A stretch of DNA of 32,584 nucleotides from Planctomycetota bacterium (lineage in GTDB: Bacteria; Planctomycetota; MHYJ01; WSZJ01), in assembly GCA_021413805.1 (NCBI GenBank), contig JAIOPR010000042.1:1-32584 (forward strand), read 5' to 3'. The stretch's first letter is position 1; each line of letters opens with the position of its first letter. The notes below the pieces were generated by a model. It was given only the letters and a program-made list of their open reading frames with translations. It searched no databases and was not told the origin of the DNA. Positions 10,424 to 31,646 of this stretch are shown piece after piece. The position numbers and the translations under genes were made by a program.

Positions 10424-11317
10424 TCACTCGCACTCAGCCTTTCCAATCTGCATCCACTCCGCGCTCTTCGCCGCACCCAATCTTCCACGCGCATCCACGC
10501 CAATAATCCCGCACTCGACCCCGTGGGACTTCGCATGCTTCGCCGTTTCATCGAGAGCGGCTTGGCAAGGCAGCTTCTTCATAAGGTCCACCGCGTACCT
10601 TCCGAGGCAATACCGCATCACCGCTTCCCCATGCCCGGTCATGGAGATGCCGCCGAAGCGGTTGGCGCAGGTCCCGGCGCCGGGGATCGGGGAGTCGCCG
10701 ACGCGTCCCGGGAGTTTCATCCAGATGCCGCCTGTGGATGTCGCGGCCGCGAAATGGCCCTTCGCATCGATCGCGCAGGCGCCCACCGTGTCGAACAAGC
10801 CGTACGCCTTGCGCCATTTGGCCATGCGTTTCCAGAAGCGAAAATCGGGGCCGGTGCGGCCGCAGCGGAGGTCTTCCTTGAGCTTGTTCCACCAAGCGAT
10901 GCGTTCGGGGGTGCGGGGGTCGTGGTCGGGGTGGCCGGTGAGGCGGGCGAAGCGGGTGGCGCCTTTGCCGACGAGGAGGTGGTGGTCGGTCTGTTCCATG
11001 ACGGCGCGGGCGACGGAGATCGGGTGTTGCGTGCGGCGGAGGCCGGCGACGGCGCCGATCTTGCCGTCGTGGGTCATGAGGCAGGCGTCGAGCTCGCACT
11101 CGCCGTCGAGCGTGAGGACGGCGCCGGTGGCGGCGTCGAAAATCGGGTGGTCCTCGAGGACGTGGATCGCGCGCTCGACCATGTCCACGGCGGAGCGGCC
11201 GCGCATCCCGGCGACCGCGGCGCGGTCGAGGACCTGCTGGCGTTCGCCGGTGGGGCCGTGGGGACCCCGGCCGGCGCCGCCGTGGGCGATGAGGGATTTG
11301 GTGAAGCGCCTGGTCAT
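10424..11317 (-). CDS. Isoaspartyl peptidase/L-asparaginase family (type 2, Ntn hydrolase)
   Basis: MTRRFTKSLIAHGGAG..., YGLFDTVGACAIDAKGHFAAATSTGGIWMKLPGRVGDSPIPGAGTCAN (catalytic Thr in DTVGA); start overlaps stop of upstream copy (ATGA). Confidence 0.85.
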   Translation of the reverse strand: MTRRFTKSLIAHGGAGRGPHGPTGERQQVLDRAAVAGMRGRSAVDMVERAIHVLEDHPIFDAATGAVLTLDGECELDACLMTHDGKIGAVAGLRRTQHPISVARAVMEQTDHHLLVGKGATRFARLTGHPDHDPRTPERIAWWNKLKEDLRCGRTGPDFRFWKRMAKWRKAYGLFDTVGACAIDAKGHFAAATSTGGIWMKLPGRVGDSPIPGAGTCANRFGGISMTGHGEAVMRYCLGRYAVDLMKKLPCQAALDETAKHAKSHGVECGIIGVDARGRLGAAKSAEWMQIGKAECE

Positions 11318-12022
11318 GCGGAGTCCCGCGCGGTGGGCATCCACTCGGCGTTGAACGCCACCGCGACGCGGCCCCGGGCGTCCACGCCGATCAGCCCGGC
11401 TTCGACGCCCTCCCGCCGCGCGAAGGCCACCGCGCGGTTGAGGGCGGCGGGGCAGGGAAGCGTCTTCATGAGGTCGCACGCCACCTTCGCCAGCCCGAGG
11501 CGCAGGATTCCCTCGCCGTGCCCGGTCGCCGAGACCGCGCCGTGTTCGCAGGCGTAGGTCCCGCCGGTCCGCCCGGAGCTCGGCCACCAGCTGTTTCCAG
11601 CGCTTCCGCCTCGCCGGCGTCCGGGGGTCATAGGCGGGGAATTTCGCGAGCCTCGCGAACCGGGTCGCGCCTTCGCCGACGAGGAAATGGTGGTCGGTCT
11701 GCTCCATCACGGCGCGCGCCACCGAAACCGGGTGCTGCACGCCCTCGACGCCGCCGACCGCGCCGGCCTGGAAGTCGCCGGTCATCACCGCCGCGTCCAT
11801 CTCCACCCGCCCGTCGATCGTGAGGACGCTTCCCGTCCCCGCGTTGAAGAAGTGCGAGTCCTCGAGGTATCGCACGGCGCGCTCGACGATGTCGAGGGCG
11901 GAGCGGCCTTTCAGCCCCGCTTCGACCGCCCGCGCCAGCGCCTCGTCTCTCCCCTCGGGGAGGACTTTGGGTTTGCGGCCGCAGCCGCCGTGGACGAGGA
12001 GTGTTTTCCGGGGTGTGGGCAT
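11314..12022 (-). pseudogene. Second isoaspartyl peptidase-like copy with internal deletion and frame change removing the catalytic Thr segment
   Basis: N-terminal half MPTPRKTLLVHGGCG...LVAELRADRR in one frame; C-terminal half GTYACEHGAVSATGHGEGILRLGLAK...IGVDARGRVAVAFNAEW in another; junction near 11559-11570. Confidence 0.75.
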
Positions 12023-17467: not shown

Positions 17468-17890
17468 CTACCGCAGCACAGAAATGCTCCGCACGACCCA
17501 GGTGTCGCCCTTCTTCACGAGCGAAATCGACAGCCTGCCTTTCTGCTTCTTGTCGTTCGCGTCGGTGTACTCGTAGACGTACGTGGCCGAGGGGTTGCTG
17601 CCTCCCTCGTACCCATCTTTTTCGATCTTGAGCGTCACCGTCGTGTTGGATTCGAAGAATTTCTTGAGCCGCGAGATCGCCTGGTCGCGCGAGTACTGGG
17701 CGGAGTCGTCGGGAAGTGACAGCGTGACCTTGGAGTCCTTGTCGAAGCTCGCCCCGACGCCCTTGGCATTCCCGGCGTACCACGATCCCGACACGCTCTC
17801 AAACACGGCCATCGCGGCGTCCTCGGGTTTGTCGTCCGCGAGGGCGGGCAGCGAAAGGACGGCGAGCAGGAAGGTGAAGAGCCTTTTCAT
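17468..17890 (-). CDS. Small secreted NTF2-like protein, DUF4783-like
   Basis: Signal peptide MKRLFTFLLAVLSLPALA; SGSWYAGNAKGVGASFDKDSKVTLSLPDDSAQYSRDQAISRLKKFFESN... Confidence 0.7.
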   Translation of the reverse strand: MKRLFTFLLAVLSLPALADDKPEDAAMAVFESVSGSWYAGNAKGVGASFDKDSKVTLSLPDDSAQYSRDQAISRLKKFFESNTTVTLKIEKDGYEGGSNPSATYVYEYTDANDKKQKGRLSISLVKKGDTWVVRSISVLR

Positions 17891-17949
17891 GGTGGGCCTC
17901 GTCTCGGGCGGCGGTCGCGTGTGGAGCGGCGTCGCAGTGCCTCTCTTGA

Positions 17950-17966
17950 TTGCAAAAGCAGTGCCC
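17950..17966 (-). promoter_or_regulatory. Putative sigma-54 (-24/-12) promoter for the DUF4783-like gene
   Basis: Minus strand GGGCAC-TGCTT-TTGCAA; GG-N10-GC spacing matches consensus TGGCAC-N5-TTGC with one mismatch. Confidence 0.65.
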
Positions 17967-18009
17967 CGGGTCGATTCTATAACACCTTGGCGCCGCGGGA
18001 GTTGCGAAT

Positions 18010-18026
18010 GTGCCTCCGCGGGGCAC
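18010..18026. promoter_or_regulatory. Candidate enhancer-binding-protein site (17-bp inverted repeat)
   Basis: GTGCCTC-CGC-GGGGCAC, 7-bp arms with one mismatch, about 44 bp upstream of the -24 element. Confidence 0.4.
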
Positions 18027-18049
18027 CGTCCCTTTCCGGGGACACCTGG

Positions 18050-19432
<1,383 letters not shown>

Positions 19433-20692: not shown

Positions 20693-22060
20693 CTAGAAAT
20701 CGACCTGAACGCGGATCACGAGCACGTCTTCGTGATCGAACCGGCGGTTGCCCACGACCAGCGGACGGATCGAGGAGCCGGTGTACTCGATGAACGCGTA
20801 CATCGCCGAGACGCGGACGTTCGGGTTCGGGTACCAGTTGACCCCGGCCGCGAACTCGTCCACCTTCTGCGCCGAATCCTGCTTCGAGATGATCCCGTCG
20901 CGGATCAGGTCGCCCGGGACATTGAAGCGGCTGTAGCGTGCCAGGACCTCGACCGCGCCGATGCCGCCAGCAGAGCCGAACAGCGGCTTGTTGACCGTCG
21001 GCCGATCCCAGGTCTTCGCTTCACCCGTGATGATCCACGACGCCGTCACCAGCCACGCCGAGTGGTTCGCATTCGCGCCGCGGCCGGTCTTGGTCGTGGA
21101 GCCCGGGAAGCGGTACGAATCGCGCGTCCACAGGAACTGGGCCTTCACGCCGATCGGCCCGAGGAGCCAGGCCAGCTCGGTGTTCACCCGGTAGCGGCTG
21201 CCGTCGAACCGCGCGAAATTCGCATTGGGGCCCTTCGCCACGAACGTCGTCTGCGAGGCGGGATCCGAGTACGTGTAGGGAAGCACGCCGGTCGCCAGGC
21301 CGCGCTTGCCGTAGTTCGCGTCCACGGCGATGTGGATGCCCTTGAGGAAATCGGATTCCATCGTCGCGAACGGCCGGAGCTGTGCGCGGAGGAAGATGTC
21401 CTTGTCGCTGTTGTTGTCCACACCGGCGCGGCCGGTGCCGTTCGAAACCATCACGTTGTAAGCGAAGATCTTTTCGACGATTTCCCCGTACACCATCGCG
21501 CCCAGCTCGTACCCGGGGACGAGCCTGTCGAGAAGGCCGCGCTCCGGCATGTCGATGAACAGCGTCGACTGCGTCTGGTCGATCGACATCGGCGCCTTGT
21601 ACTGCCCGACCTTGATCTTGAGGCAGCTGAAGCGCTCGAAGGACACGTAGGCATCGTCGATGGAGAAATTCGGCCCGGTCGAGGCGGCCTCAACGCGGAA
21701 CCCCCAGTCCTTGAAGATCTTTCCCTGCAGGTCGATCTTCACTTCGCGGAACGAGAAACTGTTGATCGAGATGCGCTCCGGGTTCATGAAGTACGCCCGG
21801 TAGTGGACGAGCACGCGTCCGCCGACATGCATCTCAAAGTTGCCGTCCTGGCTCTTCACCTGCAACCCGTTCTTGAAATACGCATCGATCTTGTTGCTTC
21901 CCGCGGCGGCCGGCGAACCCGGCTCCGGGGCCGCTCCCTCCGAGTCCTCCTTCACCTTCATCTTCGTCTCCAGCGACTTAACGCGATCTTCCAGCGTTTC
22001 GGCGCCTGCCAATCCCGCGAGGAAAAGGCACATCCCCAGCGTCGTCGAGATCCGGCTCAT
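20693..22060 (-). CDS. Phosphate-selective porin O/P-like outer-membrane protein
   Basis: Signal peptide; short coiled coil LEDRVKSLETKMKV; HVGGRVLVHYRAYFMNPE...REVKIDLQGKIFKDWGFRVEA...SIDDAYVSFERFSCLKIKVGQYKAPMSIDQTQS; C-terminal ...VDF. Confidence 0.85.
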   Translation of the reverse strand: MSRISTTLGMCLFLAGLAGAETLEDRVKSLETKMKVKEDSEGAAPEPGSPAAAGSNKIDAYFKNGLQVKSQDGNFEMHVGGRVLVHYRAYFMNPERISINSFSFREVKIDLQGKIFKDWGFRVEAASTGPNFSIDDAYVSFERFSCLKIKVGQYKAPMSIDQTQSTLFIDMPERGLLDRLVPGYELGAMVYGEIVEKIFAYNVMVSNGTGRAGVDNNSDKDIFLRAQLRPFATMESDFLKGIHIAVDANYGKRGLATGVLPYTYSDPASQTTFVAKGPNANFARFDGSRYRVNTELAWLLGPIGVKAQFLWTRDSYRFPGSTTKTGRGANANHSAWLVTASWIITGEAKTWDRPTVNKPLFGSAGGIGAVEVLARYSRFNVPGDLIRDGIISKQDSAQKVDEFAAGVNWYPNPNVRVSAMYAFIEYTGSSIRPLVVGNRRFDHEDVLVIRVQVDF

Positions 22061-22103
22061 CTGTCCTCCTTGAAAAGGGAAACCGTGTGTTTGACGAAGG
22101 CGA

Positions 22104-22157
22104 AGGGTAGGAGGCGCGTGTTCAGGGGGGACGAGGCGAATGTTAAGAACGGGATAA
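22104..22157 (-). promoter_or_regulatory. Pho-box-like promoter of the porin gene
   Basis: Minus strand TTATCC-N5-TTAACA-N5-CTCGTC-N5-TGAACA-N9-TACCCT (third position degenerate). Confidence 0.6.
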
Positions 22158-22180
22158 ATCGAACCGCCGGGGACCGCGAA

Positions 22181-22234
22181 TTAACGGGGAATTCACGGGC
22201 GCTTTGCCGCCGTCGAACCCGTGGGACCGATGAT
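22181..22234 (+). promoter_or_regulatory. Pho-box-like promoter of the STAS gene
   Basis: TTAACG-N5-TTCACG-N5-TTTGCC-N5-CGAACC-N9-GATGAT. Confidence 0.5.
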
Positions 22235-22272
22235 TCCGCAGGGAAAAAGAAGCGGGCAATCGGAGAGAAGCC

Positions 22273-22656
22273 ATGATCGACCTCGTGATCCGGACGGTGG
22301 TGTTCGGCGACGGGCAGGCGTGCGTCGAGCTGGAGGGCGTGCTGGACGGGAGGACGTCGGTCGAGCTGGAACAGGAGGTCGTGGAACTCCTCGAGCGGGG
22401 CCCGTGCCGGCTCGCCTTCGACCTCTCGAGGCTCTCGGTCATCACGAGCGCCGGCGCCGGGGTATTCGTCGGGACCGTCGTGATGACCCAGGAGCGGGGT
22501 GGCGCCATGGCGCTGGTCCGCCCGCAGCCGGCGGTGCGGCAGGTCCTCGAGATCCTCGGGCTCGGCGGCGTCTTCCCGATCGTGGACGACATGGAGGACG
22601 CGGTCCTCTCGATCGAACACCTCTGCCGCGTCAACCGCGGGTCCGCAGCCGGGTAG
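22273..22656 (+). CDS. STAS-domain protein (anti-sigma-factor antagonist-like)
   Basis: ACVELEGVLDGRTSVELEQEVVELLERGPCRLAFDLSRLSVITSAGAGVFVGTVVMTQERGGAMALVRPQPAVRQVLEILGLGGVFPIVDD. Confidence 0.88.
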   Translation: MIDLVIRTVVFGDGQACVELEGVLDGRTSVELEQEVVELLERGPCRLAFDLSRLSVITSAGAGVFVGTVVMTQERGGAMALVRPQPAVRQVLEILGLGGVFPIVDDMEDAVLSIEHLCRVNRGSAAG

Positions 22657-22660
22657 GCCT

Positions 22661-23344
22661 TCACGCCCCGGCCCGCGTCCCTTCGCGAAGCGATCGCGAG
22701 TGCCGCACGATCTCCCCCGTCACGAGGTAGATCGTGTCCTCCGCGATGTTCGTCACGAGGTCCGCAATCCGTTCCATCTCGCGCCCGATCCGGTACACCG
22801 TCAGCGCGGCGTCGATGTGCGCGGGAGATTCGCGAAGCGTCCTCCGTGCGGTGTCGGTGATCTCGCTGTCCAGCCGGTCGATCGCCTCGTCCGCCTGCAG
22901 CACCGCCCGCGCTTCTTCCACATCCTGGCGGCGAAGCGCCCGGATTCCGCGCGAGATGGCCTCGACGACGCGCGCCGCCATCTCGCCGGCCTGGGGCGGA
23001 AGAGAGAACGCGCGGTCCTCGAGGACAGCGTGGGTGAGACGCGCAACGTTGGTCGCGTGGTCGGCGATGCGCTCGAGGTCGTTGTTCACCTTGAGGACGG
23101 TCGCGAGGTAACGCAGGTCGCGGGCGACCGGTGCGTAGAGCGCGATGAGCTTGAGGCACTCTTCCTCGATCCGCACTTCCTCGCGATCAACATCCTCGTC
23201 CATCATCATCGCCCGCTGGGCCCGCGCTGCGTCGCCGGTGACGAGCGCGTGGACCGCATCCTCAACGCAGCGGTGCACGCGGTCCTCCTGCCTGAGGAGG
23301 AGTTCGTTCAGGGACTCGAGGGCCTGTGCGAAGTGCTTCGACAT
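22661..23344 (-). CDS. phoU: Phosphate transport system regulator PhoU
   Basis: VARDLRYLATVLKVNNDLERIADHATNVAR and YRIGREMERIADLVTNIAEDTIYLVTGE; two PhoU repeats. Confidence 0.95.
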   Translation of the reverse strand: MSKHFAQALESLNELLLRQEDRVHRCVEDAVHALVTGDAARAQRAMMMDEDVDREEVRIEEECLKLIALYAPVARDLRYLATVLKVNNDLERIADHATNVARLTHAVLEDRAFSLPPQAGEMAARVVEAISRGIRALRRQDVEEARAVLQADEAIDRLDSEITDTARRTLRESPAHIDAALTVYRIGREMERIADLVTNIAEDTIYLVTGEIVRHSRSLREGTRAGA

Positions 23345-23367
23345 GGTTTCTCCGTGGCTGAGCCTGC

Positions 23368-24138
23368 TTAGCCGAATTTTCCGGACACGTAGTCTTCGGT
23401 TTCGCGCTTCTTCGGCCGCTGGAAGATCTCGCCCGTCGGGCCCTCTTCGACAATCTTCCCCATGAGGAAAAACGCGGTCCGGTCGCTGCAGCGCGCGGCC
23501 TGCTGCAGGTTGTGGGTGACGATGACGATGGTGTACTGCTTGCGGAGGTCGCGGACGGTTTCCTCGATTTTTGCGGTCGAGATCGGGTCGAGCGCGCTGG
23601 CGGGCTCGTCCATGAGGATGATCTCGGGGTCGTTCGCGAGCGTGCGCGCGATGCAGAGCCGCTGCTGCTGCCCGCCGGACATGTCGATCGCCGAGCGGTC
23701 CAGGCGGTTCTTCGCTTCTTCCCACATGTCCGCCTGCCGCAGCGCCCGCTCCAGGATGCGTTCCAGCGCCGCCTTGTCCCGCACGCCGGCCATGCGCGGC
23801 CCGAAGGTCACGTTCTCGCGGATCGTCATCGGGAACGGGTTGGATTTCTGGAAGACCATGCCGACTTTCTTGCGAAGCGCTTCCAGCGAAGTGCGGGGAT
23901 CGGCGATGTCTTCGCCGTCAACGAGGACGCGGCCGGACATACGGAAGCCGGGGATGACGTCGTTCATGCGGTTGAGGCAGCGGAGGAACGTGGACTTGCC
24001 GCAGCCGGAGGGGCCGATGAAGGCGGTGACCTGGCGGGCCGGGATGTCGAGGGAGACGTCCTTGAGTGCGTGATGATCGCCGTACGAGGCGTCGAGGTTG
24101 CGGATCGAGAGGGCGATGGTGTCGGTGCTCGTGGTCAC
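23368..24138 (-). CDS. pstB: Phosphate ABC transporter ATP-binding protein PstB
   Basis: [66 protein letters not shown]. Confidence 0.97.
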
Positions 24139-25733
24139 AGGGCGGACCCCCGGAAGCGTTTCTTGAGGCGGTTACGGAGGATGATCGCGACGAGGTTGAG
24201 GGCGAGGACGAGGAGGAGCAGCGCGAGGGTGCTGGCGTAGGTCATGGGTTTCGCGGCCTCGACGTTGGGCGACTGCATCGAGACGTCGTAGATGTGGAAG
24301 CCGAGGTGCGTGAACTTGCGGTCGAGGTGGAAGAACGGGAACGCGGAATCGACGAGGGGCTGGGGCGCGAGTTTCACGGCGGCGCCGAGCACCATGAGCG
24401 GCGCGACTTCGCCCGCGCCTCTTCCGATGGCGAGGATCATGCCGGTGAGGATCCCGGGCATGGCCTGCGGGAGCACGACGTGGCGGATCGTCTGCCAGCG
24501 TGTCGCCCCGAGCGCCATGGCGCCGTCGCGGCTCGCCTGCGAAACCGAACGGAGGCCTTCGGTCGCGGCGACGATGACGACGGGGACGGTGAGAAGCGCG
24601 AGGGTCAGGGCGCCCCAGAGGATCCCGCCTGTCCCGAACGTCGGGTGCCCGCGGTCCGCGAAGAACGCGCGGTCGATTCCCGCGCCGATCGTGTAGACAA
24701 AGAGGCCAAGGCCGAAGATGCCGAAGACGATGGAAGGGACGCCGGCGAGGTTCGCGATCGCGAGGCGGACGAGCTGGAGGAGGCGGCCTTCGCGGGCGTA
24801 CTCGTTCAGGTAGATCGCGGCGACTACGCCGAGCGGGACGGCCGCCAGCGTCATGACGACGACGAGAAAGAGGGTCCCCATGATGATGGGGAGGATTCCC
24901 CCCTCGGTGTTCGACTCGCGCGGCCGGGTGGACACGAACTGCCACGCCTGGGTGAGGTAGTGTCCCAGCTTCGCGAAGACTCCCATCGAGTTGGGCGCCC
25001 ACGCGCCGATTACGTTCACCGCGGGTGTCAGGACCACCGAGCCGTCGGACTGCCGCCACTCGATCGTGATCGCGCTCCCTTCGGCTTCAAGCTCCTTCCT
25101 GCGCTTCTCCAGCGACGCCAGCTGCGACCGGTCGCGGGCGATGTTCATCTCGTCCCGCACGGCTTCCAGCCTCGAACGCAGGTCGGCCCCGCGCGAGAGC
25201 GCTTCGGAAATTGAAACCGCGCCCTTGACGGCCCCCAGGGTGCCGTAGAGGCGACCGTATTCGGAACGGTCCACGACCCAGGCGTCGCGGGGGAAGGATT
25301 CGGCGGCGACATCGAGGTCGTCGACCCAGAGGAAGTCATTGGAGCCTGTGACTTCGCGGTGGCCGACGCGGAGGAGGCGGCGGCCGATGTGGGTGTTGCG
25401 GCCGGGAAGCTGCTTTTCGCCGCGGTCGCGGACTTCGCCGAGAAGGATCGAGCCGTCCTGGCGACGAAGCTCCACGATGCGGGAGGGCCAGAACTGCCCG
25501 AGTCCTTCGACGAAAGTGATGGAGAGGATGCCGACGAGCATGGCGGCGACGACGACGAGCCCGGCGGCGGTGGACCAGATCCAGGGGCGGCCGTGATTGC
25601 GGCTGGCGGGCTGGAAGACGGAGCCGGGTGCCGGAGTCGAATCGGAAGGCGCGGGAGGCGGCAGGGGCGGCGGCATTTCCGGCGCGCCGCGCTTCGTGGC
25701 CGCCGATCCTTCGAGGAGCTCAATTCCGTCCAT
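24135..25733 (-). CDS. pstA: Phosphate ABC transporter permease PstA with enlarged extracytoplasmic loop
   Basis: Start MDGIELLEG; permease motif [29 protein letters not shown]; about 200-aa non-TM insert after TM1; ATGA overlap with pstB. Confidence 0.92.
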
Positions 25734-27972
25734 ATTTCCTCCGGAGGCGCGTCCCGACGATTTCAGCCACGGTGTTGAGCGCGGCGGTGAACCCGAACAG
25801 GAGAAGGCCGGTGAGGAAGAGCACGCGGTAGAGTGAGCCGCCGACGGGCGCTTCGGGGATTTCGATCGCCATCGCGGCGGACATCGTGCGCATTCCATTC
25901 CACGGCGCAGGATCGAGGATCGGGGTGTTTCCCGCGGCCATGACGACGATCATGGTTTCACCGGCGGCTCGCCCGAGGCCGAGCACGGAAGCGGCGAACA
26001 GCCCGGAAGCGGCGGCGGGGAGGATGACGTGGCGGACGGTCTGCCACCGCGTGGCACCGAGGGCCAGCGAGGCGGTGGTCATGGAAGCGGGGACGTTGGC
26101 GAGAGCGTCCTCGGCGATCGTGAACACGACGGGGATGACCGCAAATCCCAGCGCGACGCCGACCATGAACCCGTTGCGCAGGTCGTAGTGAATATGGAGC
26201 TTCTCGAACAGCCACTGCCGGAAATCGCCGTGGAACAATCCGCGCTCGACAGGGCCGGAAAGCGCTGTGGCGAGCGCGACGGTCGCCAGCAGGGTGACGA
26301 GGGCGCCGGCGAGCTCGAGGCCGGGGACCGGCCGCGCGCCCGGTTTTTCGGTGAGGCGCCCGCCAAGGGCGACGATTCCCGCGAACACGAACGGGAACAG
26401 CGTCCCCCCGACGAAAATCCCGCAGAGCGCCCGCTCGGCGAGCGGAGCGAGCCACAGCGCCGCCACCATGCCGACCACCACGCTCGGGATCCCCGCCATC
26501 AGCTCGATCGCCGGCTTGACCCACGACCTCAGGCTCGCCGGGGCGAAGCGCGAAACGTAAATCGCCGCGGCGAAGGCCACGGGGATCGAGAACAGAAGCG
26601 CGTACAGCGTTCCCTTCAGCGTCCCGAAAATCAGCGGCCACAGCGAATACTTGGGCTCCGATTCCTGCGTCCCCGAGCTCGACTGCCAGACCAGCTCCGG
26701 TTCCGGGTAGCTCTCGTACCAGAGCGGGGCGAAGAGAGCCCGCGCCGTGACGTCGGGGTAGGGATTCTGGATCGTCCAGGTCCGCAAGCCGTCGTGCCAC
26801 GCCCCCAGCTCGCTTCCTGTGCCCCCGAACGCCACCCGCTTCGCCGGAAGCGGCACGGGCGGCTCGATCGCGATGTTCCGCTGCTCCGTGGTCCCGTGGT
26901 AGACCGCGACGCCGCCCGAAGCGTCCCCGGCCGCGAAGCACTTGTTTCGCGGGCTCGCAGCGACCGAGGTCGCCGCGGCGTGGAGGGCGGGGAACGTGCG
27001 GGCCTTGAGGAAGAGCAGTCCTCCGGGGGTCACGCGGACAGGTCCGTCCTTGGTCACGTGCTTCGAGTGGTCCTGGTCGCGGACGACCACCGATTTCCCC
27101 GCCGGCACCCGGTCGCCCAGGACCTGCGCTTCTGTGCTGCCCGAATTCGTGAGCGTCACATGCCGCACACGCATCCAGCCGAGCACGGCGCCGCGGTCGT
27201 CCGCGGTGACGAGGGTTTCGTCGCCGAGGAGGAACGCGAGGGCCGTGATGCGGCTGCTGGCCGCGGGAAGCGTCTGGGTCCTGCGAGTCTCGGTCAGGTC
27301 CTCGACGTTCCAGATTTCGACTTCGCCGGAGTTGCGCGCGACTGCCAGGGTTTTTGCGTCGTTGGAGAGTGTGATGGCGATCGCGTCGCTGATTTCGAGC
27401 GGTGTCTCCACCGCGTCGCCGAGCCCGGCCGGGCCGCACACCGTGACGATCCCGCCGGCGAGCCGCGCCAGCTTTCCGTGCCCTTCACCGTCCCGGGCCG
27501 CGCAGATCGAGTCCGGCCGTACGGCCGAAAACGTCTGTTCGTCCAGGGCCAGCGCCGCCACCGCGCCGTCGACGCGCTTCTCCACCCGGACCAGCGCAAA
27601 CCGGCCGTCGTCGAACACGATTCCCGTCGTCCGCGAAATGCCGGCGTTCGCCGCGGCCACCGGGCGCGCCTTTGCGTATCCCGGGATTTCGACCTTCACC
27701 GGGCTTCCGTTTTCGAGCCGCCATACCCCTTCACCCGTCACCCACCACGGCTCGGCGGTCCCTTCAACGAAATCCATCGCGAGGCAGGCCGCCTTGTCCC
27801 CCCGGACGACAGCGACCGAAGCGCGCGCCGGGAGAAAGAGGGGGATGGCCACGTAGGCGAGAAAGACGAGGATGCCGAGCACGCAGCACACCACCAGCAA
27901 TCCAGCGCCGGGGATCACTTTCGCGGCGATGCGATCCAGGACGATCGCCTTCAGGTTGGGTTGGTGGGCCAT
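25720..27972 (-). CDS. pstC: Phosphate ABC transporter permease PstC with beta-propeller/WD40-like extracytoplasmic insert
   Basis: TM1 then about 350-aa insert with ITLSNDAKTLAVARNSGEVEIWNVEDL, ITALAFLLGDETLVTADDRGAVLGW; permease motif [24 protein letters not shown]. Confidence 0.9.
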   Translation of the reverse strand: MAHQPNLKAIVLDRIAAKVIPGAGLLVVCCVLGILVFLAYVAIPLFLPARASVAVVRGDKAACLAMDFVEGTAEPWWVTGEGVWRLENGSPVKVEIPGYAKARPVAAANAGISRTTGIVFDDGRFALVRVEKRVDGAVAALALDEQTFSAVRPDSICAARDGEGHGKLARLAGGIVTVCGPAGLGDAVETPLEISDAIAITLSNDAKTLAVARNSGEVEIWNVEDLTETRRTQTLPAASSRITALAFLLGDETLVTADDRGAVLGWMRVRHVTLTNSGSTEAQVLGDRVPAGKSVVVRDQDHSKHVTKDGPVRVTPGGLLFLKARTFPALHAAATSVAASPRNKCFAAGDASGGVAVYHGTTEQRNIAIEPPVPLPAKRVAFGGTGSELGAWHDGLRTWTIQNPYPDVTARALFAPLWYESYPEPELVWQSSSGTQESEPKYSLWPLIFGTLKGTLYALLFSIPVAFAAAIYVSRFAPASLRSWVKPAIELMAGIPSVVVGMVAALWLAPLAERALCGIFVGGTLFPFVFAGIVALGGRLTEKPGARPVPGLELAGALVTLLATVALATALSGPVERGLFHGDFRQWLFEKLHIHYDLRNGFMVGVALGFAVIPVVFTIAEDALANVPASMTTASLALGATRWQTVRHVILPAAASGLFAASVLGLGRAAGETMIVVMAAGNTPILDPAPWNGMRTMSAAMAIEIPEAPVGGSLYRVLFLTGLLLFGFTAALNTVAEIVGTRLRRKYGRN

Positions 27973-27983
27973 GGCTGGAGGAA

Positions 27984-28014
27984 GCAGGGGCCGGGATCTT
28001 CTCCCGGCCCCTGC
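27984..28014 (-). promoter_or_regulatory. Intercistronic stem-loop between pstS and pstC
   Basis: Perfect 13-bp inverted repeat GCAGGGGCCGGGA-tcttc-TCCCGGCCCCTGC, no U-tract. Confidence 0.75.
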
Positions 28015-28020
28015 GTTGCC

Positions 28021-29010
28021 CTACTTGTTCAGCTTCTCCAGCTCTTTCGCCACGATGGCGGGCGGAAGAGGCATGTAGCCGTCCTTGACGGCGATCTCCT
28101 GTCCTTCGTGCGACAGGATGAATTTCACGTACTCGCGGACGACCGCGTCCGGGCCTTTGCCGGGCGGGTTGTCGATGTACACGAGGAGGTAACGGGCGAG
28201 GGGGTACTTGCCGGACAGCGCGTTCTCGTAGGTCGGCTTGAAGACCTTGTCCGAGAATGTCTTGGCCAGCGGGATGGCGCGGACGCCCGGCGTGATGTAG
28301 CCGATGCCGCCGTAACCGATCCCGTAGAGGTCCTCAGCGACGCCCTGCACCACCGCGGCGGTGCCGGGCTGCTCCTTGACGGACGACTTGAAATCTCCCT
28401 TGGCGAGGGCGTGCTCCTTGAAATAACCGTAGGTCCCGCTGGCGCTGTTGCGGCCGTACAGGCTGATCGGCTTGTTCGCCCAGTCGCCCGTCAGTCCCAG
28501 CTGGCCCCACGTCGTGATGTCTTCCGTGTACCCGGCCTTGCGCGTCTTCGAGAAGATCGCGTCCACAAGTTCCAGCGTCAGGTTCGCGAGCGGGTTGTCC
28601 TTGTGCACGACGACCGCGAGCGCATCGATCGACGTCTTGATCTCCAGCGGCTTCGCGCCCTTCTTCGACGTGTACGTGTCCAGTTCCTCCGGCTTCATCG
28701 GCCGGCTCATCGGGCCGATGTTCGACGTCCCCGCGGCCAGCGCGGGCGGCGCCGTCGCCGAGCCCTTGCCCTCGACGCTGACGTTCACCTCGGGGTAGAT
28801 CTTCTTGAACTCTTCCCCCCACAGCGTGGACATGTTCACCATCGTGTCCGACCCGACGACGTTCACGTTCCCGCGCACGCCGTCCACCTTGGCGTACTTG
28901 GCGATCGAGTCGTCCACCTTCACCGCATCCGTGCTGTCGGCCAGGACTGCCACCGTGGCCACCGAGCTTCCAAGAAGCGCGGAAAGCCAGAAACGACCGT
29001 TGAGCTTCAT
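28021..29010 (-). CDS. pstS: Phosphate-binding protein PstS
   Basis: VNVVGSDTMVNMSTLWGEEFKKIYPEVNVSVEGKGSATAPPAL...ISLYGRNSASGTYGYFKEHAL; GGAGGA before ATG at 29010. Confidence 0.95.
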   Translation of the reverse strand: MKLNGRFWLSALLGSSVATVAVLADSTDAVKVDDSIAKYAKVDGVRGNVNVVGSDTMVNMSTLWGEEFKKIYPEVNVSVEGKGSATAPPALAAGTSNIGPMSRPMKPEELDTYTSKKGAKPLEIKTSIDALAVVVHKDNPLANLTLELVDAIFSKTRKAGYTEDITTWGQLGLTGDWANKPISLYGRNSASGTYGYFKEHALAKGDFKSSVKEQPGTAAVVQGVAEDLYGIGYGGIGYITPGVRAIPLAKTFSDKVFKPTYENALSGKYPLARYLLVYIDNPPGKGPDAVVREYVKFILSHEGQEIAVKDGYMPLPPAIVAKELEKLNK

Positions 29011-29044
29011 CTTTCTTCCTCCAATCAATGGGTTGTTGGAGGGG

Positions 29045-29098: not shown

Positions 29099-29731
29099 TT
29101 CCGGCGCCTTGACGGGGGCGGGGGCGAGATTCGCCAGCTGGGCGTCGTGGACGCGCGACAGCGCCACCTGCGCCGTCATCGCGCCGATGAACGCCGTGAA
29201 CATGTCCCATTGCGTGTCCCAGGGGTCTCCCTGGGTCCCGAGGAATGCCTCCGCGGCCGTGCCGCTCGCGACGGCCGTCCACCACTCGATGAACTCATAG
29301 ACGGCGCTGAACGCCAGGCAGACGCTGGTGACGAGGACAAAGAGCCATTTGCCGCGGCGAAGCGGCGAGGTGCGGAGGAGCAGTTCGCGGACGAGGATGG
29401 CGGGGACGAAGCCCTGGGCGAAATGACCGAGGCGGTCATAGGGGTTGCGGGAGAGGTGCAGGAGGTCTCGCACCCAGTACCCCGGCGGGACCTCTGCGTA
29501 GGTATACCGTCCCCCGACCATCAGGATCATCCCGTGGATCGTGAGCAGGACGCACACCAGCGGCGTCAGCGGGAATCGTTTCCGCGTCGCGATCAGGATC
29601 GGGGCCCCGATCAGCGCCGGCGCGACCTCGAGGAACCACGTGAAACGGTCCTTCGGGTGGATCCCGGACCACACCAGCACCGCGGCGGCAAGCGCCAGGA
29701 GGACCGGCAGGAGGCGGGGACTCTGCTTCAC
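29084..29731 (-). CDS. DUF2238 / YjdF-like inner-membrane protein
   Basis: RNPYDRLGHFAQGFVPAILVRELLLR, VYEFIEWWTAVASGTAAEAFLGTQGDPWDTQWDM; GTG start chosen (alternative ATG at 29764). Confidence 0.85.
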   Translation of the reverse strand: MKQSPRLLPVLLALAAAVLVWSGIHPKDRFTWFLEVAPALIGAPILIATRKRFPLTPLVCVLLTIHGMILMVGGRYTYAEVPPGYWVRDLLHLSRNPYDRLGHFAQGFVPAILVRELLLRTSPLRRGKWLFVLVTSVCLAFSAVYEFIEWWTAVASGTAAEAFLGTQGDPWDTQWDMFTAFIGAMTAQVALSRVHDAQLANLAPAPVKAPEFTRP

Positions 29732-29762
29732 TCGCGCGGATCCTACCCGTAGACTTCCCCGC

Positions 29763-31646
29763 ATGAGCGCAAAATGGACCGGACACTTCGAAGCACGGAC
29801 GGTGACGCCGGAAAATGCGGTGGCCTGCGTGAAGCGCGGTTCGCGCGTGTTTGTCGGCTCGGGGTGCGCGGAGCCGGTGCTCCTGGTGGCGGCGCTCGCG
29901 GAGCGGCCGGACGTCGAGGACGTCGAGGTCCTGCACATCATGACGGTCGGCCAGGCGCCGTACGCCAAGGCGACCCAGACGCGCCGCTTCAGGGCCAACG
30001 CATTCTTCATCGGCTCGAATGTCCGGGAAGCGGTGGCGCACGGTGCGGCGGACTACACGCCGATGTTCCTCTCGGAAATCCCGGGGCTGTTCCGGACGCG
30101 GCGCGCTCGGCTCGACGTCGCGCTGGTCTCGACGACGCTTCCCGACGCGCACGGGTTCGTGTCGCTGGGGGTGAGCGTGGACGTCGTGAAGGCCGCGGTC
30201 GAGTCGGCGGACATCGTGGTCGCGGAGGTCAACCCGACGATGCCGCGGACGCACGGGGCAAGCTTCGTGCACGTTTCGGACATCGATTTCTTCGTGCGCA
30301 ACGACGCCCCGATCCTCGAGTCGGCGCCCGACCCGGTCAATGAGGTCACGATGAAGATCGGGCAGTTCTGCGCGAGCCTCATCGATCACGGCGCGACGCT
30401 CCAGATGGGCATCGGCGGCATCCCGAACGCCGTCCTCGCGAACCTCGGCGACAAGCAGGACCTCGGCATCCACAGCGAAATGTTCTCCGACGGGATCATC
30501 GAGCTCATCGAAAACGGTGTCATCACCGGCCGCCGCAAGACCCTCCATCCGCGCAAAGTAGTCACTTCATTCTGCAAAGGCTCGCGCCGCCTCTACGACT
30601 ACGTCCACGACAACCCGCTCTTCGAGTTTCTCCCGACGGAGTTCGTCAACGACCCGTTCGTGATCGCGAAGAACAACGCCATGATTTCCATCAACTCCGC
30701 GCTCCAGGTGGACCTGACCGGGCAGGTCTGCGCCGATTCCATCGGCACCCGTTTCTATTCCGGCATCGGCGGCCAGGTCGATTTCATCCGCGGCGCCGCG
30801 CGTTCGCCCGGCGGGCGCAGCATCATCGCGATTGAATCCACGGCAAAGGGCGGCACCCTGTCGCGCATCGTCCCCGTCCTCGCCGAGGGCGCCGGCGTCG
30901 TGACGACCCGCGGCGACGTCCACACCGTCGTGACGGAATACGGGATTGCCGAGCTGAAGGGCCGCACCGTCCGCGAACGGACGCTCTCCCTGATCAGCAT
31001 CGCGCACCCGGATTTCCGCACCGACCTTCTCGCGGTCGCCAGGAACCGGAATCTCGTGGCTGCGGACCAGGTGCCGTGGCCGGCGAAAGGCCGGCCGTAC
31101 CCGGTCGAGCTCGAGGCACGTGAGATGGTCGGCGGCACCGAGGTCTTCCTGCGGCCGCTTCGCCCTGCCGACGAAAAGCTCCTGCGCGAGTTTTTCTACT
31201 CGCACTCGCCCGAGACCATTTACCAGCGCTACGGCGCGCCCCTGAAGTCGTTGACGCCGCGCCAGATCCAGGAGCAGTGTGCCCTCGACTACGACACCGA
31301 GATGGCGATCGCGGGGTTTGTGCACGACGGCGAAGGCGAACGCATCGTCGCCCTCGGCCGTTACGAATTCGACCGCGCCTCGGGCCTCGCCGACATCACC
31401 TTCACCGTCGCGGAGAATTTCCAGGGGCGCGGCCTGGGCACCTGGCTTTTCCAGCGGCTCGTCAAGGTCGCCCGCGAACGCGGCATCAAGGGCTTCACCG
31501 GCACCGTCCTCGCCGGCAACGTCCGCATGATGGGCATCTTCCACAAGAGCGGCGAGCCCGTGGAGTCGCGCCTCGAGGACGGACGGTATCGCGTGACGGT
31601 GATCTTCGAGAAAAACCGGGGTGAGACCGAGCCCGTGAGCCGTTAG
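29763..31646 (+). CDS. Acetyl-CoA hydrolase/CoA-transferase family protein fused to C-terminal GNAT acetyltransferase domain
   Basis: LQMGIGGIPNAVLANLGDKQDLGIHSEMFSDGIIELIENGVITG; GGQVDFIRGAARSPGGRSIIAIESTAKGG; C-terminal FTVAENFQGRGLGTWLFQRLVKVARERGIKGFTGTVLAGNVRMMGIFHKSG. Confidence 0.92.
   Translation: MSAKWTGHFEARTVTPENAVACVKRGSRVFVGSGCAEPVLLVAALAERPDVEDVEVLHIMTVGQAPYAKATQTRRFRANAFFIGSNVREAVAHGAADYTPMFLSEIPGLFRTRRARLDVALVSTTLPDAHGFVSLGVSVDVVKAAVESADIVVAEVNPTMPRTHGASFVHVSDIDFFVRNDAPILESAPDPVNEVTMKIGQFCASLIDHGATLQMGIGGIPNAVLANLGDKQDLGIHSEMFSDGIIELIENGVITGRRKTLHPRKVVTSFCKGSRRLYDYVHDNPLFEFLPTEFVNDPFVIAKNNAMISINSALQVDLTGQVCADSIGTRFYSGIGGQVDFIRGAARSPGGRSIIAIESTAKGGTLSRIVPVLAEGAGVVTTRGDVHTVVTEYGIAELKGRTVRERTLSLISIAHPDFRTDLLAVARNRNLVAADQVPWPAKGRPYPVELEAREMVGGTEVFLRPLRPADEKLLREFFYSHSPETIYQRYGAPLKSLTPRQIQEQCALDYDTEMAIAGFVHDGEGERIVALGRYEFDRASGLADITFTVAENFQGRGLGTWLFQRLVKVARERGIKGFTGTVLAGNVRMMGIFHKSGEPVESRLEDGRYRVTVIFEKNRGETEPVSR

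Follow-up and report, generated by a model that had tools for sequence, protein, structure and literature searches.

Genes and features of the locus

We analyzed a window of 32,584 nucleotides (positions 1 to 32,584 of contig JAIOPR010000042.1) of a Planctomycetota genome (GCA_021413805.1), focusing on the gap between a response regulator gene and a DUF4783 gene. Matches to DUF1559, considered as evidence on the phylum, were weak and partial only. The features discussed here are the following:

17468..17890 (- strand), DUF4783 protein (PF16022; Pfam score of 40.1 bits versus a cut-off of 24.1) with a signal peptide-like N-terminus, the predicted target
17951..17966 (- strand), predicted sigma-54 promoter GGGCACTGCTTTTGCA, with GG at 17965-17964, GC at 17953-17952 and a predicted start near 17940
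17978..18006 (- strand), middle inverted repeat CGCAACTC-N13-GTGTTATA, a degenerate copy of CRYAASTC-N13-AASTTRYG, defined from alignment A1 and by recurrence
18010..18026 (no strand), originally predicted palindrome GTGCCTCCGCGGGGCAC, unsupported as a functional site
18027..18044 (- strand), putative conserved enhancer TGTCCCCGGAAAGGGACG (TGTCC-N8-GGACR), 79 bp upstream of the -24 GG, identified by its fixed spacing and recurrence
18050..19432 (- strand), orphan sigma-54 response regulator of an NtrX-like clade (REC, AAA+ with GAFTGA, Fis-type HTH), assigned with Pfam and a tree

The next gene upstream of the promoter had been described as a GAFTGA response regulator in a window without a histidine kinase, and both statements hold: the protein has a REC-AAA(GAFTGA)-HTH_8 architecture in Pfam (Sigma54_activat, 2.7e-71; Response_reg, 1e-29; HTH_8, 1.1e-7), and no histidine kinase was found within the window by a Pfam scan, with the Pst genes read by eye. 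The AlphaFold2 model of the DUF4783 protein (pLDDT of 90) matches solved DUF4783 structures, with a TM score of 0.85 to 4q53; a literature search returned no paper mentioning the family.

The two genes are adjacent and codirectional also in four other members of the genus and in two order-mates. Gene order around the pair is largely kept within the genus, while only the pair itself is kept in the order-mates (G006, locus L157; G005, locus L158), where it adjoins genes that read as ParA/ParB.

A -24/-12 promoter is conserved upstream of the DUF4783 gene

The original prediction placed a near-consensus sigma-54 promoter with a single mismatch in this gap, and it is present as described: the minus strand reads GGGCACTGCTTTTGCAA at 17966..17950, with one mismatch to TGGCACN5TTGCW, and the predicted promoter lies 61 nt from the DUF4783 ATG. 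Taken alone, this match is weak evidence, because a whole-genome scan for the consensus with up to one mismatch returned 78 matches versus 123 for the reversed control, that is, chance frequency. Its significance comes from conservation in relatives with a linked pair. We compared seven gaps, from five genus members (host included) and the two order-mates, and found GG-N7-TTTGCW (GGN7TTTGCW) in every one (7/7), with shuffle probabilities of 0.001 to 0.03 per genome; the product of these probabilities overstates the significance, since the genomes are related and thus not independent, and all of them are incomplete. The -24 box past the GG varies in G003 to G006 (GGTCC, GGCCC, GGCCG and GGACA), and in G001 the predicted start gives a near-leaderless transcript with a leader of ~6 nt. 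Conservation extends to G008, a class-mate from another family, whose unlinked DUF4783 gene has GGCACGAACTTTGC upstream; the middle element there resembles GTTATGATT, and TGACC-N8-GGACA lies 96 bp before the GG. The genome also encodes RpoN (PF00309 match over the cut-off). At the level of sequence comparison, these data confirm the predicted -24/-12 promoter as a real and conserved element, which is probably sigma-54 dependent.

The conserved enhancer adjoins the originally predicted palindrome

All seven gaps (7/7) also contain an 18-bp palindrome, TGTCC-N8-GGACA, with 8 to 10 of the 10 arm positions matching; the G005 copy is weak (8/10; P = 0.056). The distance from the start of the palindrome to the -24 GG is exactly 79 bp in 5/5 genus members and 94 bp in 2/2 order-mates, unlike the stop-to-palindrome and promoter-to-ATG distances, which vary among the seven gaps. 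The palindrome fits the QseF/GlrR operator consensus TGT-N12-ACA. We therefore take 18027-18044 as the likely conserved control site.

The activator site had initially been assigned to the adjoining 17-bp palindrome GTGCCTC-CGC-GGGGCAC, which is present at 18010-18026 but occurs at chance level: the window contains 83 inverted repeats of this kind (P = 0.28 for one per 159-bp gap), and no counterpart was found in the gaps of the relatives. Its position between the regulator and the promoter, ~19 bp from the conserved palindrome, would be compatible with a role, and G001 and G002 carry a second TGTCC half-site or site 19 to 20 bp from the main one, so that tandem sites are possible. However, its arms and spacing differ from those of the recurrent site and, being unconserved and expected by chance, it is most improbably the activator site.

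We also considered that the TGTCC palindrome acts as an RNA hairpin or belongs to a dispersed repeat rather than being a protein site, given that it follows the stop codon of the regulator and could pair with itself. This explanation is close to negligible in probability: no copies with 1 or 2 mismatches were found elsewhere in the genome, which rules out a dispersed REP-like repeat, the N8 center varies, and the distance from the -24/-12 element is also fixed at loci away from the regulator.

The same fixed spacing bears on whether the DUF4783 gene has a promoter of its own. The codirectional genes, the 159-bp gap, the lack of a detectable T-run terminator on this strand and the chance frequency of the consensus matches alone would all agree with read-through from the regulator operon and a coincidental -24/-12 match. 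Against this, the elements are conserved at fixed spacing in 7/7 gaps while other parts drift, G008 retains the promoter although its two genes are unlinked, and no sigma-70-like site was found, which makes read-through very unlikely. No enhancer site was found in front of the regulator gene, nor in front of the methyltransferase, hypothetical or porin genes; autoregulation was rejected on the basis of the missing site at the regulator gene.

The enhancer-promoter layout recurs within the genus

We scanned the seven genomes for the enhancer followed by a variable gap and the -24/-12 pattern. This retrieved the DUF4783 loci and one extra site per genus member, plus one probable chance match in G004, versus a single match in all for the reversed control. 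Four of the extra sites lie ~75 to 80 nt before the ATG of small proteins with signal-like N-termini, and the extra site of G004 precedes a structured RNA (see below). A sequence model, R1, built on ten sites (alignment A1), found 44 matches at E<0.03, about half of them with an enhancer at -79 to -83; these matches are partly circular, because R1 includes the enhancer. A less circular scan, for the QseF consensus as published plus a simple -24/-12 element, yielded 9 matches in the genus versus 0 in the controls; in seven genomes from other genera the counts were 4 versus 3, which is control level. The regulon is thus supported in the genus only, and its extension to order- and class-mates was rejected, as both model and pattern searches stayed at control level there. 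The predicted targets of the layout are DUF4783, the AENFFKKVG...HERHVDMM family, the ...AYFAGILTG... family, further short proteins and one RNA; among five small target proteins scanned, none passed a Pfam cut-off.

The locus had been proposed to form a compact regulator-promoter-target circuit. An enhancer-type circuit beside an NtrC-family regulator is indeed supported by conservation across the order; it is not closed or compact, however, since the layout appears at several other loci per genus member, including a small RNA.

As a separate observation, near-identical sigma-54-like promoters precede a short secreted family (MKASFLAIAGALTL...) at L215, L221 (G000:C179 and C287), L220 and L217; the MKASFLAIAGALTL family has two copies in G000, with different upstream sequence (tttacaaag).

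One predicted target is a structured small RNA

All five genus members have one enhancer-promoter with a ~114-nt stretch, nearly invariant in sequence, that begins ~70 to 90 nt past its -12 element:

G000:C294:6162-6275 (+ strand), structured RNA of ~114 nt (L200), with orthologues on G001:C53, G002:C127, G003:C152 and G004:C397

Besides two hairpins, it has a long terminator hairpin with a T run at the end, and it folds much better than shuffled sequences (z of -6.4 and -5.2). Six pairs show compensatory changes and none is broken, in an alignment of only five sequences. The covariance model matches every genus genome exactly once (five of five) and none of 289 other phylum genomes. An Rfam search gave no family matches, GlmY included, and a known RNA was rejected accordingly. 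By these searches, the RNA appears to be previously unlisted, single copy and genus specific among the genomes searched. Candidate regions for pairing are its invariant loops, for example GUCAACCCCCUGCG. The lipoprotein gene downstream is conserved in G000 and G002 (in G001 as judged by eye) and is not kept in G003 and G004, which favors an independent RNA; a leader or attenuator was rejected on the same grounds.

A middle inverted repeat is shared with other sigma-54-like promoters

Between the enhancer and the promoter sits a 29-bp inverted repeat, CRYAASTC-N13-AASTTRYG. The same element is found at enhancer-less sigma-54-like promoters of flgB, FHA proteins, chaperonin genes and an AAA ATPase (names assigned by reading translations). 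Among 30 sites picked by the -24/-12 consensus alone, 11 match it at ≥12/16 positions, most with a spacer of 13, versus 8.5% of random positions. Examples genus-wide are L128 (G000:C255:10356) and L211 (G000:C68, flgB), promoters of unrelated function. The element could be a genus-wide accessory-factor or bending site. The IHF core is YAANNNNTTR. Given that box A of the element resembles this core and that two proteins of the HU/IHF family are encoded in the genome, a bending site is a fair conjecture, but no more than that.

The adjacent NtrX-like regulator is the probable activator

Matches to the regulator at E≤1e-60, paralogues included, occur in all 59 genomes searched, while true orthologues are found in the genus and the order. 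The protein shares 37% identity with GlrR, and GlrR orthology was rejected because the tree places it in a separate supported clade (with GlrR as a long branch). It resembles PDB 5m7n ("Nitrogen assimilation regulatory protein") over the full REC-AAA-HTH length (1.6e-94) and has an HTH of the RSNLYKK/RSNLHRK type, as in NtrX-type regulators; the tree contained no reference NtrX.

The palindrome could instead be bound by another of the ~17 sigma-54 activators encoded in the genome, with the promoter and enhancer being real and the adjacent regulator having other targets. The G008 DUF4783 gene has its sigma-54 promoter away from the regulator, and the regulator is widespread in phylum genomes where DUF4783 is absent, both of which speak for such an activator. 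We nevertheless regard it as rather unlikely, given that the regulator-DUF4783 pair is the only neighborhood retained in the order-mates and that the enhancer lies inside the gap between these genes in 7/7 genomes. The adjacent regulator is thus the probable activator at the palindrome.

Our preferred reading, to which we assign a probability of about 65%, is that the locus carries a sigma-54 enhancer-promoter unit through which an orphan NtrX-like activator, possibly aided by a protein that bends DNA, controls an envelope regulon with a small RNA among its members. The promoter, the enhancer, their constrained spacing and the recurrence of the layout are supported by the genome comparisons. 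An unlinked kinase would phosphorylate the regulator, which would then bind the TGTCC-N8-GGACR palindrome as a dimer and oligomerize. A protein, perhaps of the HU/IHF family, may bend the DNA at the middle element and so bring the AAA+ ring to RNAP-sigma54 for promoter opening. In this way the DUF4783 protein would be made alongside further small envelope proteins and a single structured small RNA with the same enhancer-promoter layout; a role in the envelope is presumed.

Relation to known sigma-54 circuits

LuxO of vibrios is a sigma-54 response regulator that drives the Qrr small RNAs. The proposed circuit likewise has a sigma-54 response regulator driving a small RNA, but here the RNA is unrelated and single copy, and several small envelope proteins share the promoter layout. 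LuxO is treated in PMC11407668.

The circuit also resembles QseF/GlrR-glmY (and rpoE), a sigma-54 circuit of Enterobacteriaceae in which QseF, assisted by IHF, drives a small RNA (PMC6075780, PMC8745638) from an operator described as TGTN12ACA (PMC6075780) or TGTCN10GACA (PMC8745638). The two have in common the operator consensus, the sigma-54 promoter, a possible bending site in between, a small RNA among the (here predicted) targets and, presumably, functions in the envelope. In contrast, the regulator described here is not a GlrR orthologue, no GlrK kinase or QseG lipoprotein was found linked to it in the window or in the neighborhoods of relatives, an Rfam search shows no relation between the RNA and GlmY, and one enhancer copy lies at ~80 bp, whereas the E. 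coli glmY upstream region has three exact operator copies further upstream. By this comparison, the circuit would work like QseF-GlmY without being a member or orthologue of it.

In Rhodobacter, the envelope is under the control of NtrYX (PMC7240162). The regulator is similar to NtrX-type regulators over its full length and in its HTH type, but, unlike in NtrX systems, no NtrY-like kinase was found next to its gene, either in this window or in the inspected relatives. That sigma-54 controls the bacterial exterior is known as a general theme (PMC3162934).

Tentatively, an NtrX-like activator may have arrived independently at the QseF/GlrR operator, with an envelope regulon composed of a genus-specific RNA and several small secreted families, and a genus-wide factor may read the 29-bp repeat at many sigma-54 promoters. 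If true, the combination of a sigma-54 activator, TGTC-N10-GACA, a possible bending site, a small RNA and envelope genes would exist outside Enterobacteriaceae with a nonorthologous regulator, bearing on the repeated evolution of such wiring. For an orphan response regulator of an uncultured lineage, the analysis offers a regulon, an operator and a spacing rule that can be tested; it also links DUF4783 to predicted control by sigma-54 in several families within one class and uncovers a structured RNA outside Rfam.

Other genes in the window

At 10424-12022 (- strand), two asparaginase_2 domains share one long frame, apparently owing to a fusion or tandem duplication in which one of the copies has partly decayed. 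The region 20693-29028 (- strand) holds a PhoU-PstBACS cluster and a Porin_O_P protein, with no PhoR/PhoB in the window. At 29541-31646 (+ strand), an acetyl-CoA hydrolase/transferase is fused to a GNAT acetyltransferase domain.
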